Shown here: positions 23,524 to 35,169 of the stretch, piece by piece
How the letters are laid out: every line of letters starts with the position of its first letter
How positions within the stretch are numbered: the stretch's first letter is position 1
Origin: Acidobacteriota bacterium
GTDB lineage: Bacteria; Acidobacteriota; Thermoanaerobaculia; Multivoradales; Multivoraceae
DNA length: 64,000 nt
NCBI GenBank assembly: GCA_028875725.1
Contig: JAPPCR010000006.1
Location: forward strand, 751,786 to 815,785
Direction of reading: 5' to 3'
Program-made: the position numbers and the translations under genes
The notes under the pieces: model-generated
The model's input: only the letters and a program-made list of their open reading frames with translations
Database searches by the model: none
What the model was told of the DNA's origin: nothing

Positions 23524-24603
23524 ATGCGCGCCGAACGAGCCGTCTTCGCCCTCATCGTGATCATCGCCGCCGCGGTGGTGATCGTGGCTCCGGCCATGGC
23601 GGCCGGCGACGACATTCCACGCACGGCGAGTGGCAAGCCCGACCTGACGGGTCGTTACAACATCGCGAGTTCGACGCCGTTCGAACGGGATGCGCGCTTC
23701 GGCGACAAGAAGTACATGGCCGTCGAGGAGGCCCAGCGCATCATGGCGGCTACTGCGGCGCGGATGGCCCAGGCCAACGCCGCTAGCGATCCCGACCGGT
23801 CGGCGCCTCCCGCCGGGGGTGATGGTTCCGGCGGTCCCGCGGGTGCGGTAGGCGGGTACAACGCCTTCTGGACGGACAGCGGCAGTACGCGCCACGCGAT
23901 CGACGGCCAGTTCCAGACCTCGATCCTCACCGAGCCGGCGAACGGCCGCATGCCGGAGCTTTCGGAAGCGGGCAAGGCGCGGCGCGCGGACCTGCATCCG
24001 TACGCCTACGAGAACACCGGCGACGCCTGGTGGATCGAAACCGGCGACGATCCCTATGACGGGCCGGAGACGCTGTCGATTCTCGACCGTTGCCTGTACC
24101 TCAGCGCGGCGGCGACGCCTGCCCGGCCGATCCTCTACAACAACCTGAAGACGATCACCCAGACCGAAGACCACGTCGTCATCCTGGTGGAGTGGATGCA
24201 CTGGGCGAAGGTCGTGCGGCTCAACGCCGAGCACTTGCCGGCGGAAGTGCGTTCCCTGGGAGGCGATTCGATCGGCTGGTGGGAGGACGACACCCTGGTG
24301 GTCGAGACGACGAACTTCCTGGACAAGCCGGGCGTGCCGCGCGAGGGCCTCAAGGTGATCGAGCGTTTCACCAGGCAGAGCGCCGACGCGCTCCTGTACC
24401 AGTTCACCGTTCACGATCCCGACTACTCCGCGCCCTACGGCGGTGAGTTCCTCTGGCCGCAGACCGAGGAGCTGAACTACGAGTACGCCTGCCACGAGGG
24501 CAACTACGCGATGGGTAACATCCTCCGCGGTGCGCGGCTGCTCGAGCGGGAGTACCTCGAGCGGAAGGGCCAGTCGGGCAGCACGGGCTCGGGGGACGAG
24601 TAG
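23524..24603 (+). CDS. Exported protein of the PDLxGxW/TPLERP family (copy 2 of 5)
   Basis: A 359-residue exported protein of the same unknown family as 9134-10147. Motifs visible here are GKPDLTGRYNI (variant of PDLxGxW), STPFERD (variant of TPLERP), GGYNAFW, FQTSILTEPANGRMP, DRCLY, IGWWEDDTLVVETTNF, IERFTR, LYQFTVHDP and YEYACHEGNYAMGNILRGAR. The N-terminal anchor is a signal peptide (to about AMAAGDD). GGAGGACACTTC precedes the ATG. It is followed 13 nt later by the DUF547-radical SAM gene, an unusual neighbour for a secreted protein. Confidence 0.8.
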   Translation: MRAERAVFALIVIIAAAVVIVAPAMAAGDDIPRTASGKPDLTGRYNIASSTPFERDARFGDKKYMAVEEAQRIMAATAARMAQANAASDPDRSAPPAGGDGSGGPAGAVGGYNAFWTDSGSTRHAIDGQFQTSILTEPANGRMPELSEAGKARRADLHPYAYENTGDAWWIETGDDPYDGPETLSILDRCLYLSAAATPARPILYNNLKTITQTEDHVVILVEWMHWAKVVRLNAEHLPAEVRSLGGDSIGWWEDDTLVVETTNFLDKPGVPREGLKVIERFTRQSADALLYQFTVHDPDYSAPYGGEFLWPQTEELNYEYACHEGNYAMGNILRGARLLEREYLERKGQSGSTGSGDE

Positions 24604-24616
24604 CCCCGGGGCGTCG

Positions 24617-26161
24617 ATGGAGGCGTTCTCCTACGCGGCCTGGGACCGCCTGCTGGCCGAGGTCGTCACTGAGGACGGCAAGATCGACTACGAGGGCCTG
24701 GCCGCGCGCCGGCCGCTGCTGGAGGAGTTCATAGCCGGACTCGGCGAGACGTCGCCGGACAGCCGCCCGGACCTGTTCGCGAGCGAGGAGGACGGCCTCG
24801 CCTACTGGATCAACGCCTACAACGCGTTCACCCTGCACGCGATCGCGGAGGAGTACCCGATCCGGTCCGTCTGGAAGACGCGCGACGGACGGTTCTTCCA
24901 GCGGCGGCGACACATCGCCGGCGGTTCAGCGGTCAGCCTCGACGACATCGAGCACCAGATCCTCCGGTCGGACTACGCCGAGCCGCGCATCCACTTCGCG
25001 ATCAACTGCGGCGCGAACGGCTGCCCGGCGTTTCGCCCGACTGCCTACCGGGGCGACGGCCTCCGCGACACGCTGCGCCAGGCGACCGAGGCGTTCCTGG
25101 CGAACCGCTGGAACTGCCGCGTCGACCACGAAGCGGAGCGGATCCACGTCTCCCGCATCTTCCGGATGTACGCCGAAGACTTCGCCGCCGGCGCGGGAAC
25201 GCGAGAGGAGTACCGCAGCGGCGTGCTCGGCTTCGTCGCCGAGCACGCGGGCCTGGACCTGGAGCAGGTCGCCGGCTACGAAATCGTCTACAACACGTAC
25301 GACTGGGGTCTCAACGACACGCACCGCGATCCGAACATCGGCCCGATTACATTCCACGAGCCGGTCGAGCACTTCTCCGCGGCCGACGGCGAACTCCGGG
25401 AACTCCATCTCTACGAGGGCAACTTCTGCAACCGGGCCTGCTCCTGGTGCACGATCAACGGCTCGCCCGAGGGCTGGTACGAGCGCTACACGCCCGAGGT
25501 CCTCGACCAGGCGCTGCGCACGCTTGCCGCGAACGGCAACCTGAAGTTCTACGGCGGCGAACCGACGCTGCACACGCGGGAGATCGTCGCCGCCATGCGC
25601 TACGTCCGCGAGCGCGGGTTCACGGGCCTTATCACCGTCTTCTCGAACGGCATCCAGGCGGAGAAGCTGATTTCGATCCTCAAGTCCGACCCGAAGAGCG
25701 AGGCGGTGCTCAACTACTCGATCTACCACGGCCGGGACGCCGATCCGATGCCGCCCTACGCGCGCGAGCGCCTTGAGGACTGGGCGCGCGCGAACCCGAA
25801 CCGCATCTTCCAGGGCTACAAGGTGCTCTTTCACGCCGGCGCCGGCGCCGGGCAGGAGTTCGCGCGCGACCGGGAGTCGGAGTACCACGGCATGGGCAAC
25901 CGTTGCGTGCGCTGCTTCCCGGTGCTGACCACGAAGGGCCGGTTCCACGCCTGTCCCTTCGCCGCGGAGATCGACTCGCCGCACTTCGACCTCGGCGCCG
26001 GCGGCTCGGACTCCGGAACCGTGTTCGAGAACTACCGCACCTTCCTGCAGTGGGTGGACGACGAGCTCGATCCCGCGGCGGCGACGAAAGGTGTCTCGAG
26101 CTGCGAGATGTGTCACAAGCATCTCGGCGAACTGCCGGTTCCCGAGTTCACGGCGGGTTGA
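24617..26161 (+). CDS. DUF547-radical SAM fusion protein with SPASM-like cysteines
   Basis: A 514-residue cytosolic protein (no signal peptide) made of two complete parts. Residues 1-232 are a DUF547 domain: YWINAYNAFTLHAI, the HFAINCGANGCP motif (C131, C136) and the closing YDWGLN. Residues 255-514 are a radical SAM domain: CNRACSWC at 271-278 (CX3CX2C for the 4Fe-4S cluster), FYGGEPTLHT (GGE-type SAM contact at 313-316), then C430, C433, C446, C496 and C499, which look like ligands for auxiliary clusters as in SPASM/Twitch enzymes. Such enzymes often modify peptides or proteins. I know of no characterised protein with this fusion. The ATG at 24617 is 13 nt after the previous stop; an in-frame ATG further upstream would add a low-complexity stretch that overlaps the previous gene. 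Stop and next start overlap (TTGA). Confidence 0.85.
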   Translation: MEAFSYAAWDRLLAEVVTEDGKIDYEGLAARRPLLEEFIAGLGETSPDSRPDLFASEEDGLAYWINAYNAFTLHAIAEEYPIRSVWKTRDGRFFQRRRHIAGGSAVSLDDIEHQILRSDYAEPRIHFAINCGANGCPAFRPTAYRGDGLRDTLRQATEAFLANRWNCRVDHEAERIHVSRIFRMYAEDFAAGAGTREEYRSGVLGFVAEHAGLDLEQVAGYEIVYNTYDWGLNDTHRDPNIGPITFHEPVEHFSAADGELRELHLYEGNFCNRACSWCTINGSPEGWYERYTPEVLDQALRTLAANGNLKFYGGEPTLHTREIVAAMRYVRERGFTGLITVFSNGIQAEKLISILKSDPKSEAVLNYSIYHGRDADPMPPYARERLEDWARANPNRIFQGYKVLFHAGAGAGQEFARDRESEYHGMGNRCVRCFPVLTTKGRFHACPFAAEIDSPHFDLGAGGSDSGTVFENYRTFLQWVDDELDPAAATKGVSSCEMCHKHLGELPVPEFTAG

Positions 26162-27854: not shown

Positions 27855-28913
27855 CTACGCCGTCGCCTCGGCTACACCGGATGACTTGGCGCCTCCCCAG
27901 CGGTTGAAGCCCAGTTCGCCGCGGACGTCGGCGGTGCGCTCCAGCATCATTGCGTCGCTGGGAATGCCGGTCGAGTCGGCGACGCGGACGAGGCCGTTGA
28001 AGATACCGACGGTGGCGGCCGCCTCGACGAACTTCTCGGGTCCGAGGGTTTCGAGGGCCCGGGTGCGGGCCGCGTCGAGGTCGTTCGTGGCCCGGACGAC
28101 CGCTTCCGCGAACGCGGTCAACACGGCGCCGTCCTCCACGCCGCCATCGGCGGCGTCCTCAACCGCCGCGCTCAGGTCGACTTCGGCTCCGACGGCGTCG
28201 CTGCTCGCCCGGAGCAGCATGGTGTGGGCGGTCGTTCAGTAGAAGCACTGGTTGAGGGCCGAGACCCTGGCCGCGAGGAGCTCGACCTGGGGGCGGGCGA
28301 GCGGGCGGTGGTCCCAGACCATCTTCTCGAAGTCGGTAGCCGTTCCCGAGTACATGGCCGCGACGATGCGGAAGAAGGTGCGCACGCCCTCCGGCACCAG
28401 GCTCATCGCGCGCGCCACGTTGGCGCGCTTCCAGTCGATGACCTGGACCGGCACCCAGGCGCCGATGTCGCCCATGCCGTCCGGGCGTTCACGGGTCGGT
28501 TCGCCGGCCTCGGGTTCGGGAAGCGGTTCGTGGTCGATGCCCATCGCCTCGCAGAAGGCGTCGGCGGCGGCCGTCGTCACGACGACCGAGGCGAGTTCGA
28601 CGTAGTGCGAGTCGCCGATCTCGGCAATCACGCCGCTGGCCCATTCGCGGTCGAGGTGGGACGGATCCGCTCCGATCTTGCGGGCTGCCTCCACTGCCTT
28701 CTCCTGCAGCGGCTCGCTCGGCTCGTCGCGGTCACGGCTCCACGGCGGTTCGTTGCGCTGGACGCGCTCGGCGCGGGCGAGAGCGGCGATCGCGACACGT
28801 TCGGGGCCGGTCCACCAGGTGCCGGAGCGGCCGATGTCGGCCCACGACCTGCGCAGGGCGGTAGCCATGTCCTCACGGACGGGAACGGGGAAGCGGCCGG
28901 CGGCGAAGCTCAT
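27855..28913 (-). CDS. AhpD-like (carboxymuconolactone decarboxylase family) protein with in-frame UGA, probable selenoprotein
   Basis: Reading straight through a single TGA at 28238-28236 gives one 352-residue protein. Before the TGA the sequence is ALNQCFY and after it TTAHTMLLRAS; AhpD-like enzymes have CxxC here (QCFYCTTAHT), so UGA replaces the second cysteine and gives CxxU at residues 223-226. Both sides are in the same frame and both match the family. A first AhpD-like domain (about 30-140) has no CxxC (IGDSHYVELASVVV at its place). A bacterial-SECIS-like hairpin lies just 3' of the UGA. Role is inferred as thiol- or selenol-dependent peroxidase/disulfide chemistry. The start ATG 28913 has GAGG overlapping the upstream TPLERP gene's stop, 7 nt away. 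Automatic annotation would give two proteins (225 and 121 residues). Selenocysteine genes (selA-selD) are not in the window, so a pseudogene or a sequencing error (TGC to TGA) is not excluded. Confidence 0.8.
28200..28218 (-). promoter_or_regulatory. SECIS-like hairpin downstream of the UGA codon
   Basis: On the mRNA strand the hairpin is GCUGCUC-CGGGC-GAGCAGC: a perfect 7-bp stem (extendable by a U-G pair) with a 5-nt loop. The loop begins 24 nt after the UGA and has G at its second position. This agrees with the bacterial SECIS consensus, namely a stem-loop with a guanosine among the first two loop bases and 16-37 nt from the UGA. Lies within the coding sequence, as bacterial SECIS elements do. 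Confidence 0.75.
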
Positions 28914-28920
28914 CGTGTCC

Positions 28921-29913
28921 TCAGTACCTTTCGCCCGCCGTCACCTTCTCCAGGTGACGAGCGCCGCTCAGCGTGTTCGTGACCGCCCAGTTTCCTTCGT
29001 GGCAGGCGTACTCGAACATCTCGTTGTCCGGATCGAAGTAGAGCGGGATGTTCACCGTCCAGGTGTCCGTGTAGTTCACCGGATCGTCGATCGTGACCGT
29101 CCAGTCCACCGTGTGCTCGCCAACGCGCGTGAAGCGCTCCACGGAGACGAGTTCGGTGCTGACCGGGATCCCTTTGATCCGACCCTGGGAGCCGCTGGTC
29201 GCGATCCAGCCCTTGTCGGAGAAGTTCTTCGTTTCGACGACCAGGGTGTCTCCCTCCCAGTGGCCGCGGGAGTCGCCGTTCCAGAGGTGGAGGTCCTCCG
29301 GGATCCGCTCCCGGCCGTCGACGGGGATGAAGCGGACGTCGTTGATCATCTCGGAGTAGATGACCACGTACTCCGGCGTCTGCGCGATCCGGTAGTTGTT
29401 GTTGTAGCCGGCCGGGAACAGGTGCCCGGGGACGCCGCGGGTGATGCAGCGGTCCCAGACGCTCATGTACTCGTACGAGTCGAACATCTTCACCAGGTTG
29501 TCGGCGCGGACCTGCTGCGCCGCGGGCCGCACCGGCACGCGGCCGCTCGGGGGATCCACGACCAGGGAGGTCCGCCGGCTGCCGACGATCCTGGTGCCCA
29601 ACTCGAGCCAGTGCAGGTTGTAGGCGCCGACGTTCTGGCCGGCTTCCGCTTTCTGCGCGGGCTGGTCGGCGCGATTCTGGATCATGGCCTGACGAGCGGC
29701 CTCCGCCTGGGCGACCTCTTCCTCGGTGAGGAAGGCCTTGTCGCCCATCTCGATGGGCCGTTCGAAGGGCGTGAGCGTGGTGTTCGTCCACAGGCCCTGG
29801 AGGTCGGGATGCCCCCAGGGGGTCCGGGGCGTCTTCCAGTCGTCGGCTGCGAGGGCAGGCGCCGCGAGCAGCACCGTCGCCACGGCGAGAGCGAGCGTGG
29901 TACGTCCGATCAC
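28921..29913 (-). CDS. Exported protein of the PDLxGxW/TPLERP family (copy 3 of 5)
   Basis: A 330-residue exported protein of the same unknown family. The signal peptide ends before DDWKTPRTPWGHPDL. Family motifs are all present: PWGHPDLQGLW, TLTPFERPIEMGDKAFLT, GAYNLHW, RRTSLVVDPPSGRVP, DRCIT, SRGHWEGDTLVVETKNFSDK, VERFTR, DWTVTIDDP and FEYACHEGNWAVTNTLSGAR. The GTG at 29913 has GGAGGA 6-7 nt upstream. It is directly upstream of the AhpD-like selenoprotein gene (7 nt) on the same strand, so the two are almost certainly transcribed together. Confidence 0.82.
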   Translation of the reverse strand: MIGRTTLALAVATVLLAAPALAADDWKTPRTPWGHPDLQGLWTNTTLTPFERPIEMGDKAFLTEEEVAQAEAARQAMIQNRADQPAQKAEAGQNVGAYNLHWLELGTRIVGSRRTSLVVDPPSGRVPVRPAAQQVRADNLVKMFDSYEYMSVWDRCITRGVPGHLFPAGYNNNYRIAQTPEYVVIYSEMINDVRFIPVDGRERIPEDLHLWNGDSRGHWEGDTLVVETKNFSDKGWIATSGSQGRIKGIPVSTELVSVERFTRVGEHTVDWTVTIDDPVNYTDTWTVNIPLYFDPDNEMFEYACHEGNWAVTNTLSGARHLEKVTAGERY

Positions 29914-29969: not shown

Positions 29970-30983
29970 TCAGTCCTCGTTCATCAGCGCCTGCGCCCGT
30001 CGCCAGCGCTCGACGATCCGGTCCTCCCGCTCGTAGTCGAAACGGCCCGTGCCGGCGGCGTAGAGATCCTTCTCGTCGGGCGGGTTGTCGTGGAGGTGAC
30101 GGGCCGTGGCGCGCGTGGCGGTCTCCGGATCGACCACGTCGCGATAGCCGAGCAGGTTCCGGGCCTTCGACATGTCGAGAAGCTGGTTGGACTTCTCGGC
30201 GAGCGGAAAGACGCCGCGGCAGAAGGGCGCCGGCACGCCGATCAGCTCCATCCCGGCGTCGAGTTCGTCGATGATGACCTCCGCCACGGCGCGGCAACTG
30301 ATCACCCGTTCGTCGCCTGCGTTGAACGCCTCTCCCGCGGCTTCGGGCCGGGTGGAGGCGAGGTAGACGAGCCGGGCCAGGTTCTCCGCGTAGCCGCGCT
30401 GGAAGTAGGTCACGCCGTCGTGAGGGAGGATCATGAAGGGCCGCCGGTCGAGGATGCGCCTGATCACCGCCCACTCGTGGTTCATCGGCGTGCGCGGGCC
30501 GTAAACGCCTGGATAGCGCAGGATGACGACCTCGAAGTCGCCTCGGCCGTGCTGCTCGAAGAGCTGGTCCTCGCCTGCCGCCACCTTGCCGGTGTAGTTC
30601 TTGGCGTCGTACTGGCGGGGGGCGAACTCGGGTATGGGCAGCGGAATGCGGCCCTCCGGCGTCGGCGGCTGCGAGCCCATGTAGACGGGCTGGCCGGTGA
30701 TGCCCACGAGGCGCCTCGTCTTCCCGGCGAGTTCATCGGCCAGAGTGCGCAGCCGGCCGTACATGCACACCGCGATGTCCCACTCGCGTGACGCGAGCTT
30801 GGCGCGGATGTCGTCGCGGTCGCGGGCGTTGCCGAGGATGCGCTCCACCGGACCGTCGAACTCGACCGGGTGACGGCCGGAGTGGAAGATCGAGACCTCG
30901 AAACCGGCATGGAGGAAGTTGCGTACGATGGGCGGACCGGTGGGACCGGTGCCTCCAACAACCAGAACTCTGAGCGCCGTCAT
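29970..30983 (-). CDS. NAD-dependent epimerase/dehydratase family protein
   Basis: A 337-residue extended SDR. LRVLVVGGTGPTGPPIV at residues 4-20 is the Rossmann nucleotide motif (GGTGxTG). The middle has YDAKNYTGKVAAGEDQLF, where a Tyr-X3-Lys-type active site seems modified, and HEWAVIRRILDRRPFMILPHDGVTYFQRGYAENLARLV, typical of isoflavone-reductase or RNA-binding-type epimerases. No sugar-nucleotide specificity can be read. The ATG at 30983 begins the Rossmann strand; longer in-frame starts add residues without homology. The first 23 bases of the coding sequence form one arm of an inverted repeat. Confidence 0.85.
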   Translation of the reverse strand: MTALRVLVVGGTGPTGPPIVRNFLHAGFEVSIFHSGRHPVEFDGPVERILGNARDRDDIRAKLASREWDIAVCMYGRLRTLADELAGKTRRLVGITGQPVYMGSQPPTPEGRIPLPIPEFAPRQYDAKNYTGKVAAGEDQLFEQHGRGDFEVVILRYPGVYGPRTPMNHEWAVIRRILDRRPFMILPHDGVTYFQRGYAENLARLVYLASTRPEAAGEAFNAGDERVISCRAVAEVIIDELDAGMELIGVPAPFCRGVFPLAEKSNQLLDMSKARNLLGYRDVVDPETATRATARHLHDNPPDEKDLYAAGTGRFDYEREDRIVERWRRAQALMNED

Positions 30984-31019
30984 GGCACGTTGTGCTGCGA
31001 CGGCGCGCAGAGTTCTGGT
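30961..31019. promoter_or_regulatory. Imperfect inverted repeat spanning the epimerase start codon
   Basis: The 20-bp arms at 30961-30980 and 31000-31019 match at 19 of 20 positions (core ACCAGAACTCTG/CAGAGTTCTGGT) around a 19-nt spacer that holds the start codon (30983). In the mRNA of the epimerase the 5' leader would pair with codons 2-8 and place the AUG in the loop. May be translational control, an operator, or a chance result of an inverted duplication. Confidence 0.6.
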
Positions 31020-31034
31020 GAGGTGGGGGCTGGG

Positions 31035-31064
31035 GCCAAACTCCGACCCTGGGAGGAGTTTGGC
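31035..31064. promoter_or_regulatory. 10-bp perfect inverted repeat upstream of the cytochrome-PQQ dehydrogenase gene
   Basis: GCCAAACTCC (31035-31044) pairs with GGAGTTTGGC (31055-31064) over a 10-nt spacer. The right arm overlaps a purine-rich GGAGGAG, so in an mRNA starting upstream it would sequester a ribosome site; if the transcript starts near 31081 it would instead lie over the -35 region as an operator. Confidence 0.55.
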
Positions 31065-31069
31065 GGCGC

Positions 31070-31075
31070 TAGGAT
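31070..31075 (+). promoter_or_regulatory. -10-like hexamer for the cytochrome-PQQ dehydrogenase gene
   Basis: TAGGAT lies 7 nt before the ATG at 31083. Same arrangement as at several other genes of this window without a close ribosome site. Confidence 0.35.
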
Positions 31076-31082
31076 GCGTGCC

Positions 31083-33239
31083 ATGGCGCGGAGTGTACGT
31101 GGATTCTCGGCAGGAATGGCGCTCCTGGCGGCGGCCGCCGCGGCTGCCGGGGCGCAACAGCAGCCGGAACCGGTGCGAGTCTTCACCGCCGAGCAGGCGG
31201 AGCGTGGACGGGCGCTCTATGAGGGAATCTGCGTCGAATGCCACCTCTCGAGCCTGGCCGGCGCGAACGAGGCGCCTCCTCTGCTCGGCGCGGACTTTCT
31301 CAACGCCTGGGGAGCCGGCGCCGTGGTCGATCTCGCGGACACGATCCGGGTCACGATGCCGCCCGAGAACCGGAACTCCCTGACGCCGCAGCAGACCTTC
31401 GACCTCGCAGCCTTCGTGCTGCTACGGAATGGGGCGGCCCCCGGCGACGAAGCGCTGATACCGGACAGCTCCGGTCTCGCCGTGTCACTGGGCGGGCTGG
31501 GGTTGGGGGGCGCAGCCGCCTCTTCGAGCGACTCAGCCGTGATCGCGGAACGCGCCGTCGGCGCTCCTGCCGAAGCGGAGGAGGAGCTCGTCACGCCGTC
31601 TGGGGAACGGGAGATCGAGGACTTCGAACCGGTGACGACCGGGATGCTGCTCGACCCGGACCCCGGCGACTGGCTGATGTTCCGACGCACCTACGACGGC
31701 CAGGGCCACAGCCCGCTCGATCAGATCGACTCCGGCAACGTCAGCGGGCTGCGCCTGGCCTGGTCGTGGGCGATGGCCGACGGCGTGAACCAGCCGACGC
31801 CGCTGGTCTACGACGGCGTCATGTACCTCGCTAACCCGCGCAACATCATCCAGGCGCTGGAGGCCGACACGGGCACCTTGATCTGGGAGTACCGGCGCTC
31901 CCTCGAGGGCGATCTGGCGCGCGGCTTCAACCAGCTTCGTAACCTCGCGATCTGGGGCGACAGGATCTTTGTCGCCACGAAGGATGCGGCCATGCTCGCG
32001 CTCGACGCCCGCAGCGGGCGGCCGCTCTGGGAGACGCAGATTGCCGATCCGGCGAAGCGCTACCGGAACACGAGCGGTCCGATCGTGGTCGATGGGCTCG
32101 TGGTCAACGGCATCAACGGTTGTATCCGCTACTACGAAGACAGTTGCTTCATCACCGCCCACGATGCCGAAACCGGCGAAGAGCGGTGGCGCACGTACAC
32201 CATCGCCCGTCCCGGGGAGCCCGGAGGCGACACCTGGGGCGATCTGCCGCTCATGCTGCGCGGCGGCGGCGACTCCTGGATTCCCGGTAGCTACGACCCC
32301 GAGTTACAACTCATCTACTGGCCGGTGGCGCAGGCCAAGCCCTGGGTGCCGGCGAGCAGGGGCCTGACGATCGACCACGAGGTGCTGTACACGAACTCGA
32401 CCCTTGCGTTGCGACCCGGGGACGGGGAGATCGTCTTCTACCGGCAGCACGTGCCCGGCGAGGCCCTCGACCTCGACGAGGCCTTCGAGCAGGTCCTGGT
32501 CGACCGCGGTGGACGGAAGCTCCTGCTTACGTCCGGCAAGCACGGCATCCTGTGGAAGCTCGACCGCACGGATGGCTCCTTCGTCGCGCTCGAGGAAATG
32601 GTGTTCCAGAACGTCTTCGACCACATCGACCGCGAGACCGGCGAAGTCCGTTACCGCGAGGACATCGCGTCGGCCGAAGTCGGGGAGTGGGTCTCGGTCT
32701 GTCCCAGCACAGCCGGAGGCCACAACTGGCAGGCCTCCTCCTACAGCCCCGCGCACGGGTTGCTCGTCGTGCCGCTGAGCCAGAGCTGCCTCGACATCTC
32801 CGGCCGCGAGCCGCGCTTCGAAGAGGGGGCGGGGGGCGAGGGGGCAGACCGCAAGTGGTTCGAGATGCCCGGCACGGAGGGGCGGCTCGGCAAGCTCGCG
32901 GCCTACGACGTGGACTCGATGGAGGAGGTCTGGAGTGTCGAGCAGCGGCCGGCCTTCCTGACCGCGGCGCTGACGACAGGCGGCGGTGTCGTTTTCGCCG
33001 GGGACATCGACCGGCGGTTCCGCGCCTGGAACGTCGCAACGGGTGAAGAACTCTGGGGCACCCGTCTGCCGACTTCCGTGCAGGGCTTCCCGGTCAGCTA
33101 CGAGGTAGACGGTGTCCAGTACGTGGCGGTATCGACGGGGCTCGGAGGCGGCAGTCCGCGCTTCGTTCCAGCCCGAGTCAGCCCGGAGATCCGCTACCCG
33201 CAAAGCGGCAACGGCCTGTTCGTGTTCCGCCTCCCGTAG
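31083..33239 (+). CDS. PQQ-dependent dehydrogenase with N-terminal cytochrome c domain
   Basis: A 718-residue exported protein. The signal peptide is followed by a cytochrome c domain with CVECH (residues 50-54) and a Met-ligand candidate in VTMPPENRNSLT, then a linker, then an eight-bladed PQQ propeller starting at GDWLMFRRTYDGQGHSPLDQI and with blade motifs such as LEADTGTLIWEYRR and WNVATGEELWGTRLP. Quinohemoprotein alcohol dehydrogenases usually carry the cytochrome at the C-terminus; here it is N-terminal. It oxidises an alcohol, aldose or similar substrate in the periplasm, passing electrons to the heme. Starts at 31074 or 31083 are both possible; I chose 31083 for its distance to the TAGGAT element. 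Genes for PQQ synthesis are not in the window. Confidence 0.88.
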   Translation: MARSVRGFSAGMALLAAAAAAAGAQQQPEPVRVFTAEQAERGRALYEGICVECHLSSLAGANEAPPLLGADFLNAWGAGAVVDLADTIRVTMPPENRNSLTPQQTFDLAAFVLLRNGAAPGDEALIPDSSGLAVSLGGLGLGGAAASSSDSAVIAERAVGAPAEAEEELVTPSGEREIEDFEPVTTGMLLDPDPGDWLMFRRTYDGQGHSPLDQIDSGNVSGLRLAWSWAMADGVNQPTPLVYDGVMYLANPRNIIQALEADTGTLIWEYRRSLEGDLARGFNQLRNLAIWGDRIFVATKDAAMLALDARSGRPLWETQIADPAKRYRNTSGPIVVDGLVVNGINGCIRYYEDSCFITAHDAETGEERWRTYTIARPGEPGGDTWGDLPLMLRGGGDSWIPGSYDPELQLIYWPVAQAKPWVPASRGLTIDHEVLYTNSTLALRPGDGEIVFYRQHVPGEALDLDEAFEQVLVDRGGRKLLLTSGKHGILWKLDRTDGSFVALEEMVFQNVFDHIDRETGEVRYREDIASAEVGEWVSVCPSTAGGHNWQASSYSPAHGLLVVPLSQSCLDISGREPRFEEGAGGEGADRKWFEMPGTEGRLGKLAAYDVDSMEEVWSVEQRPAFLTAALTTGGGVVFAGDIDRRFRAWNVATGEELWGTRLPTSVQGFPVSYEVDGVQYVAVSTGLGGGSPRFVPARVSPEIRYPQSGNGLFVFRLP

Positions 33240-33265: not shown

Positions 33266-34084
33266 ATGAAAAAGCACAGTTCGGCCGTGTCGCTGCCGGC
33301 GATGCTGCTTCTCGTGGTGTCTGCGACGGCGCAGGCACAGGACGGCGCGTACCAGGCGCCGCGGACGCCTGATGGCGATCCGGATCTGAACGGCATCTGG
33401 CAGGCGATGAACAGCGCGCACTGGGACCTCGAAGCTCACCATGCCCGGCGCACGCCGGTACCCGAGTACGGTGCCCTGGGGGCGATTCCGGCCGGGCTGA
33501 GCGTGGTCGAGGGCGGGGAGATTCCCTACCAGGACTGGGCGCTCGAGCACCGAAACGCGAACCGGGCGGACTGGTTGAACCTGGACCCGGCGGCGAAGTG
33601 CTTCATTCCAGGCATTCCGCGAGCCAACTACATGCCGTTGCCGTTCCAGATCGTGCAGACGCCGAAGTCGGTCTTCTTCGCCTACGAGTGGGGCGGCAAC
33701 AGCCGCGCGGTCCGTCTCGACCGCCCGGGCACGAGGGCGGTACTGCCGTCCTGGATGGGCTACTCGCTCGGGCACTGGGAGGGCGACACCCTGGTGGTCG
33801 AGGTCACGGACCAGGTCGCCGACACCTGGTTCGACGCCTCGGGCAACTTCCACAGCGAGGAGCTCCAGGTCGTCGAACGCTACACGCGCACCGGACCGGA
33901 CTCGATGCACTACGAGGCGACGATCACCGACCCGAACGTGTTCACGGAGCCGTGGACGATCAGCATGCCGCTCTACCGGCGCCTCGAAGAGAACGCGCGC
34001 CTGCTCGAGTTCAAGTGCATTCCGCTCGGAGGAGAGGACGCGGCCTACGGCCATCTGCGCCGCGGGGCGACGCCACAGCAGTAG
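33266..34084 (+). CDS. Exported protein of the PDLxGxW/TPLERP family (copy 4 of 5, short variant)
   Basis: A 272-residue exported protein (signal peptide ending at AQAQ). It is the most divergent and shortest member of the family: GDPDLNGIWQAM is present, but the TPLERP block is replaced by a short GALGAIPAGLSVVEGG region. The second half keeps the family pattern with GHWEGDTLVVEVTDQ, VERYTRTGPDSMHYEATITDP and LEFKCIPLGGEDAAYGHLRR in place of the usual CHEGN. It is followed 14 nt later by another copy. Function unknown. Confidence 0.78.
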   Translation: MKKHSSAVSLPAMLLLVVSATAQAQDGAYQAPRTPDGDPDLNGIWQAMNSAHWDLEAHHARRTPVPEYGALGAIPAGLSVVEGGEIPYQDWALEHRNANRADWLNLDPAAKCFIPGIPRANYMPLPFQIVQTPKSVFFAYEWGGNSRAVRLDRPGTRAVLPSWMGYSLGHWEGDTLVVEVTDQVADTWFDASGNFHSEELQVVERYTRTGPDSMHYEATITDPNVFTEPWTISMPLYRRLEENARLLEFKCIPLGGEDAAYGHLRRGATPQQ

Positions 34085-34098
34085 GAGGAGTCGAAGTC

Positions 34099-35169
34099 AT
34101 GAAGCACCGACCGTCTGCAAGCACCGTCAGTTTCGTCGTCGCGATCCTGGTTGTCGCCGGGAGCCTGTACGCCGAGGATGAGAAGCTCGTCACGTCCTGG
34201 GGCGTTCCGGACCTGCAGGGCACCTGGGACTACCGCTCGATCACGCCGCTCGAACGGCCAGCCGCCTTCGGTGACAAGGCAACCCTGACCGCCGAAGAGG
34301 CGGCCGAGTGGGAAGAACGGCGCCGCCAGGAGCGTGCCGCACGGGCAACGTCGGGAGTACAGGACGTTGACCCCAGCCAGGGCGACGTCGACGTCGGCTA
34401 CAACTCCTTCTGGCTCGACCTCGGTGACAAGGTTTCGGGCACGATGCGGACGTCCCTGGTGATCGATCCGCCGAACGGCCGGTTGCCGAAGATGACGGAC
34501 GGGGCGATCCGTAGGGTGAACGAACGCTACGCCCTCTGGGGCCAGCCTCCGGCGGGTCCGGAAGAGCGGAACTCGTACGAGCGCTGCATCATCGGCTTCA
34601 ATGCCGGCCCGCCGATGACCCCGGGCGCCTACAACAACATGATGGAGATCTTCCAGTCGCCGGGCTACGTCGCGATCATGACCGAGATGATTAACGATCA
34701 CCGGGTCATCCCCACCGACGGCCGGGAGCACGCCGACGAGAGCATGCGCTTCTGGAAGGGCGACTCGTCAGGTGTCTGGGACGGTGACACGTTCGTCGTG
34801 ACGACGAAGAACTACACCGACGAAACCGCGTACCGCGGTACCGGCGCGAACCTGGTCCTGACCGAGCGCTTCACCCGCACCGGCCCCGACGCCCTGCTCT
34901 ACGAGTACACCGTCGACGACCCCGAGTCCTTCGAAGCTCCCTGGACGAGCGCCCTCGAGATGCGGCGGAGCGACGACCCGGTCCTCGAGTACGCCTGCCA
35001 TGAAGGCAACCGCGCGATGACGCTCATGCTTCGCGGCGCCCGCCACCGCGAGCAGCAGGGCACCGCCGAAGACGGCAAGGACTGGCTGGCTAGCTGGTAT
35101 GGCGGGCAGAACCGCGTCGACGCCGCCCGGGAGGCGCTGGAGGCGGCGAAGGAGGAGCAGGACCAGTGA
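34099..35169 (+). CDS. Exported protein of the PDLxGxW/TPLERP family (copy 5 of 5)
   Basis: A 356-residue exported protein of the same family. After the signal peptide the motifs are SWGVPDLQGTWDY, ITPLERPAAFGDKATLT, VGYNSFWLDLG, MRTSLVIDPPNGRLP, ERCIIG, SGVWDGDTFVVTTKNYTDE, TERFTRTGPDALLYEYTVDDP and LEYACHEGNRAMTLMLRGARH. The C-terminus is a charged, Glu/Ala-rich helix. AGGAGGAG 8 nt before the ATG is one of the strongest ribosome sites in the window. The stop codon overlaps the start of a 39-residue membrane protein gene (GTGA). Confidence 0.82.
   Translation: MKHRPSASTVSFVVAILVVAGSLYAEDEKLVTSWGVPDLQGTWDYRSITPLERPAAFGDKATLTAEEAAEWEERRRQERAARATSGVQDVDPSQGDVDVGYNSFWLDLGDKVSGTMRTSLVIDPPNGRLPKMTDGAIRRVNERYALWGQPPAGPEERNSYERCIIGFNAGPPMTPGAYNNMMEIFQSPGYVAIMTEMINDHRVIPTDGREHADESMRFWKGDSSGVWDGDTFVVTTKNYTDETAYRGTGANLVLTERFTRTGPDALLYEYTVDDPESFEAPWTSALEMRRSDDPVLEYACHEGNRAMTLMLRGARHREQQGTAEDGKDWLASWYGGQNRVDAAREALEAAKEEQDQ

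Follow-up and report, generated by a model that had tools for sequence, protein, structure and literature searches.

An AhpD-related selenoprotein gene of the NF041238 family, with a predicted CxxU centre in the second of two tandem repeats, in an uncultured Acidobacteriota genus

Introduction

The Sargasso Sea hypothetical protein 1 family was described in 2005 from four sequences with a CXXU motif and a SECIS element (PMC1088965). A 2026 review equates it with NF041238, the "AhpD_rel_CFYUT alkylhydroperoxidase-related (seleno)protein" family, which likewise carries CxxU (PMC13188914). Among AhpD-type proteins, a proton relay has been assigned to Glu36/Cys48/Tyr50/Cys51/His55 in PA0269 and to Glu118/Cys130/His132/Cys133/His137 in Mycobacterium tuberculosis AhpD (PMC3141380). 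In Sestrin2, only the first cysteine of the motif remains and is catalytic (PMC4674687), so that the first Cys position can act alone in that protein.

The gene described here lies in a window of 64,000 nucleotides (the whole stretch of DNA that was analysed) from an Acidobacteriota genome that is 98% complete. Its product is an added member of a selenoprotein family known since 2005, and is less novel than the original prediction suggests because that family is already catalogued, both as NF041238 and as Sargasso Sea hypothetical protein 1. The nearest named records are metagenome-assembled Acidobacteriota genomes (Thermoanaerobaculia, some labelled Holophagales), one of them Candidatus Multivorans thiocomprendens. 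The host group goes unmentioned in the papers searched, and neither the organism name nor CFYUT led to a publication. The host genus is uncultured and, by inference, probably sponge-associated; the locus confirms the use of selenocysteine in such a genus.

The gene and its family

The gene occupies a single minus-strand frame, 352 codons long and closed by TAG, in which one TGA is the only interruption (Table 1). Translated as U, that TGA is codon 226 in the context SALNQCFY-U-TTAHTMLLRASS, which contains the motif CFYUT. Against the NCBIfam NF041238 profile the read-through protein scores 339.5 bits over residues 12-339, where the cut-off is 175, placing it within the family. The two halves taken separately score 195.7 and 105.3 bits against adjoining parts of the model in the same frame, and the CxYU-T-x-x-H context of the family is present as QCFYUTTAH. 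The Pfam CMD domain rises above its cut-off solely with both halves joined. TIGR01926 matches the C-terminal half with 39.2 bits, under its cut-off of 81.8, which leaves the protein outside that family.

The original prediction had described this frame, its 352 codons, the TGA in its CFYUT context and the lack of any further stop. It had also held that both flanks of the TGA belong to one family and frame, and that a perfect 7-bp hairpin with a G-containing 5-nt loop begins 17 nt after the codon; all of this is confirmed, and each half matches NF041238. An open frame downstream of a TGA is by itself weak evidence in this high-GC window, because the same crude filter yields seven other TGA codons there, none of which is a convincing further selenoprotein candidate. 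A family sequence-pattern search is not independent evidence either, the pattern having been derived from the family with this gene included. An Rfam scan of the window gave no match above gathering scores, and plasmid records gave no match. Ordinary annotation would split the gene in two; reading the TGA as selenocysteine rescues it.

Table 1. Features of the selenoprotein locus (positions within the window).
Feature	Position	Strand	Basis
Selenoprotein gene	27855..28913	minus	NF041238 family; TGA=U translation; dN/dS either side of TGA
In-frame TGA (U226), second position of CxxU centre	28236..28238	minus	Conservation across genus and other classes; TGC in one exception
AhpD-type signature E211-x11-C223-x-Y225-U226-x3-H230	28224..28283	minus	Invariant in diverse alignment; AhpD spacing
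Bacterial SECIS hairpin	28200..28218	minus	7-bp stem, 5-nt loop CGGGC (28207-28211), conserved loop G 28210
C-terminal AhpD-like repeat, residues 165-338, with CxxU	27900..28421	minus	PF02627, PDB sequence match, Foldseek
N-terminal degenerate AhpD-like repeat, residues 10-140	28494..28886	minus	hhalign, N-half versus C-half
ERVQRNEPPWSRDRDEPS, residues 49-66; CxxC site of other members, centre absent here	28716..28769	minus	Family alignment
Upstream gene, 330 aa	28921..29913	minus	Apparent signal peptide; weak DUF7282 match below Pfam cut-off

Only 7 nt separate the upstream gene from the ATG of the selenoprotein gene. Of 14 congeneric loci examined, 12 have the two genes side by side in the same orientation, and in the remaining two a contig end interrupts the locus; the pair likely forms one operon. 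Across the genus the order is kept of an NAD-dependent epimerase-like gene, the 330-aa putatively secreted protein and the selenoprotein gene, an arrangement that offers no clear functional clue. The upstream protein is one of several related products in the window (23524-24603, 28921-29913, 33266-34084 and 33598-35169) with an N-terminus of the type T-P-x-G-x-P-D-L-x-G-x-W after the signal peptide; these lie near a PQQ dehydrogenase/cytochrome gene (30870-33239) and match essentially no Pfam family. Elsewhere in the window, a plus-strand ORF (24530-26161) that is 84-96% conserved in the genus combines two domains, DUF547 (92 bits) and radical SAM (34.2 bits).

Selenocysteine machinery and the SECIS hairpin

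The host genome holds the complete set of genes by which a bacterial selenoprotein gene is judged. Its tRNA-Sec (74.1 bits) has a UCA anticodon, a long variable arm and an encoded CCA, and it is accompanied by selA (443 bits), selB (349.8 bits, covering the whole model) and selD (252.9 bits). The selD gene (L158, 2715-4949, minus strand of contig C6) encodes an Ndh-SelD fusion with an NADH dehydrogenase-like domain, and is of the Cys form, FCGGCAAK. UGA also serves as an ordinary stop in this genome, as the upstream gene ends in TGA.

Published criteria for bacterial SECIS elements comprise a loop of 3-9 nt, a stem of 4-16 bp, a G in the first two loop positions, a UGA-to-loop distance of 16-37 nt and a minimum free energy at or below -7.5 kcal/mol (2026 review, PMC13188914). 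The hairpin downstream of codon 226, with the stem GCUGCUC/GAGCAGC, lies within every one of these limits: 7 bp, a 5-nt loop with G at position 2, a distance of 24 nt, and -12.4 kcal/mol for a fold of the UGA and 39 nt. All 39 distinct family sequences have the loop G, and with few exceptions they share the core GCUC-NG(G/U)NN-GAGC. In 32 of those sequences 88.8% of cells are paired, with changes on both sides at three pairs; the covariation score of 0.177 for this set, against at most 0.116 for slid controls, is supportive and modest, not decisive, because the hairpin core hardly varies. For the single sequence, the folding energy does not stand out from that of shuffled sequences (z of -0.44 in a 53-nt context and -1.67 for 42 nt), and in several distant members the minimum-energy structure differs from the hairpin.

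Active site and two-repeat architecture

E211, C223, Y225, U226 and H230 are invariant across a diverse alignment of the family, and they reproduce the five-residue E/C/(H,Y)/C/H relay with AhpD spacing. Because that spacing is identical, U226 falls at the position of Cys133 in M. tuberculosis AhpD. The original prediction took this for the resolving-cysteine position, but U226 may equally be the attacking residue. The repeat that bears the relay matches PF02627 with 29.3 bits at residues 197-237 and, by sequence, the PDB entry 6k40 AhpD (E 5.9e-7). A profile of the N-terminal half aligns with that of the C-terminal half (hhalign probability 80%, E 1.3e-5, 101 columns), in such a way that the N-terminal CxxC column falls onto the C-terminal CxxU column. 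An AlphaFold model with modest confidence scores (pLDDT 68.5, pTM 0.74) gave no Foldseek match below E 0.001; AhpD-like structures come top by probability (0.9-0.99), with E above 0.1. The model of a member with an N-terminal CxxC reached a pLDDT of 51.6 and was set aside.

The CxxC of the first repeat occurs in most Alphaproteobacterial members, in a Deltaproteobacteria record and in other Acidobacteriota, and is absent from the genus studied here and from every Acidimicrobiia sequence examined. The lack of an N-terminal centre in this genus amounts to a modest variation on the family plan. In the tree, which is midpoint-rooted only, the genus groups with three Acidimicrobiia-class sequences (100/99) nested in a larger CxxC-bearing set; the topology suggests a secondary loss of the N-terminal CxxC, perhaps with transfer between phyla. 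A second NF041238 selenoprotein, diverged in sequence and with the N-terminal CxxC retained, occurs in two congeners (L098 in G009 and L099 in G020). The tandem-repeat build with its optional second redox centre makes function easier to test.

The chemistry proposed for the protein follows that of its relatives. SelB carrying Sec-tRNA would bind the mRNA hairpin, and selenocysteine would be inserted at UGA 226, as the machinery and signal present in the genome imply. The product would consist of two tandem AhpD-like repeats, the second with the full relay E211/C223/Y225/U226/H230 and the first, in this genus, without CxxC. In a likely hydroperoxide or disulfide reduction, the U226 selenolate would react, a U226-C223 selenenylsulfide would be the oxidised form, and a thioredoxin-like or lipoyl partner could reset it.

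That the protein is a selenoprotein but no peroxidase is judged rather unlikely. It would then be a thiol-disulfide oxidoreductase, or else a sensor in which the degenerate N-terminal repeat serves to bind a ligand or partner, much as one sestrin repeat has lost its catalytic residues. In favour of such a reading, AhpD acts as the reducing adaptor of AhpC (PMC3141380), the N-terminal CxxC is absent, and Foldseek aligns whole Sestrin2 chains with the model, weakly (probability 0.57-0.66, TMq 0.44-0.45, E about 1). Against this stands the peroxidase relay, which is intact in the second repeat. A bolder proposal, and a decidedly long shot, is that the protein is a mirror image of the sestrins, with one repeat bearing Sec and the other, Cys-less, having taken on a new role, for instance in binding a ligand or partner. 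These Acidobacteriota and some Acidimicrobiia would then have the loss in common through inter-phylum transfer.

Conservation of the UGA codon

The TGA is found at the same place in 19 of 19 full-length orthologues of the genus, the window's own included. Among these congeners dN/dS is 0.152 upstream of the codon and 0.133 downstream, and both flanks are therefore under selection as protein. Upstream of the TGA, synonymous divergence stands at 0.345, and from codon +14 onward at 0.356; across codons +1 to +13 it drops to 0.059, and it reaches 0.00 over the hairpin codons +5 to +12, the lowest 8-codon window of the gene (median window 0.345). The unanimous TGA, the lack of synonymous change at the hairpin codons and the membership of both halves in one curated family put the feature beyond chance. 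One congener (G016) is without the gene yet retains tRNA-Sec, so the gene seems dispensable.

In 396 Acidobacteriota genomes, NF041238 members above cut-off carry the TGA in 14 of 14 cases. Outside that phylum, counting matches at E 1e-30 or better, a single TGA is present in 48 of 48 from the class of a Rhodospirillaceae record (G434) and in 49 of 50 from the class of an Acidimicrobiia record (G433). Many relatives within the order (G024-G057) have AhpD-like genes of shorter length; a single in-frame TGA is present in nearly all of these, which suggests that AhpD-like selenoproteins are widely used in these Acidobacteriota.

The sole member without TGA (L145 in G1066, of the Acidimicrobiia record's class) sits on a long branch and has CFYC encoded by TGC, so that Sec and Cys forms are paired at this position among the homologues. 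It is one continuous protein in which the SECIS hairpin core is absent. A search at E 1e-9 detected no tRNA-Sec in its genome and found one in all eight other genomes searched alongside it, an absence that is suggestive, because the G1066 genome may be incomplete. In the tree the sister of this Cys form is a TGA form (100/99, long branch), in keeping with a replacement of Sec by Cys. Across the family the protein is thus almost always a selenoprotein, and the single Cys form seen sits in a genome without detected tRNA-Sec.

These comparisons bear on three other readings of the codon. Were the TGA a true stop, the protein would end after 225 residues and a separate short ORF would start from the ATG at 28220; a 121-aa ORF does begin right past the TGA. 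This reading is very improbable and is rejected, since the NF041238 model runs across the TGA unbroken, the TTAHT between the TGA and that ATG is conserved as protein, invariant H230 included, and the Cys homologue is continuous. A pseudogene or sequencing error, in which a Cys TGC was mutated or misread, would take one base, in a genome that is probably a metagenome assembly like its named congeners; it is scarcely credible and is refuted by the sharing of the TGA among 19 congeneric genomes, each assembled separately, and some 100 members elsewhere, with purifying selection on both flanks. Recoding of UGA as another residue (Trp), or a variant genetic code, has a negligible chance and is rejected because the upstream gene terminates in TGA, the TGA-less homologue has Cys rather than Trp, and a canonical tRNA-Sec with a UCA anticodon is present.

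The gene thus almost certainly encodes an NF041238 AhpD-related selenoprotein of two repeats, with hairpin-directed selenocysteine at U226 and, judging from its relatives, a likely role in hydroperoxide or disulfide reduction. The original prediction had inferred selenocysteine insertion, with CxxU in the second of two AhpD-like domains, and had proposed looking for selA, selB, selC (tRNA-Sec) and selD in the same genome, for a hairpin that satisfies a bacterial SECIS predictor and for homologues with Cys at residue 226. All four sel genes were found, the hairpin is conserved and satisfies the published bacterial model, and the rare Cys homologue is without the hairpin core, in a genome where no tRNA-Sec was detected; together with the conserved TGA, these results support the predicted insertion, and the half-against-half profile match supports the domain assignment.

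Comparison with known systems

The protein matches NF041238 over its full length and shares with that family the CFYUT motif, the position of Sec and a SECIS element directly downstream, whereas its genus is without the N-terminal CxxC of most Alphaproteobacterial and several other members. The AhpD-like peroxidase-related selenoproteins of TIGR01926 also have a CxxU centre, and their model weakly matches the C-terminal half; that model, however, spans about 180 residues with one AhpD-like domain, and the present protein, with its two repeats, falls below the cut-off. M. tuberculosis AhpD and PA0269 have the E-x11-C-x-(H/Y)-C-x3-H relay with spacing identical to that seen here, but with Cys in place of Sec and a different chain layout. 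Sestrin2 likewise combines two tandem AhpD-like domains and keeps the catalytic motif in one only (PMC4674687). The catalytic repeat comes first in sestrin and second in the present protein, and the likeness between them is a weak Foldseek similarity.
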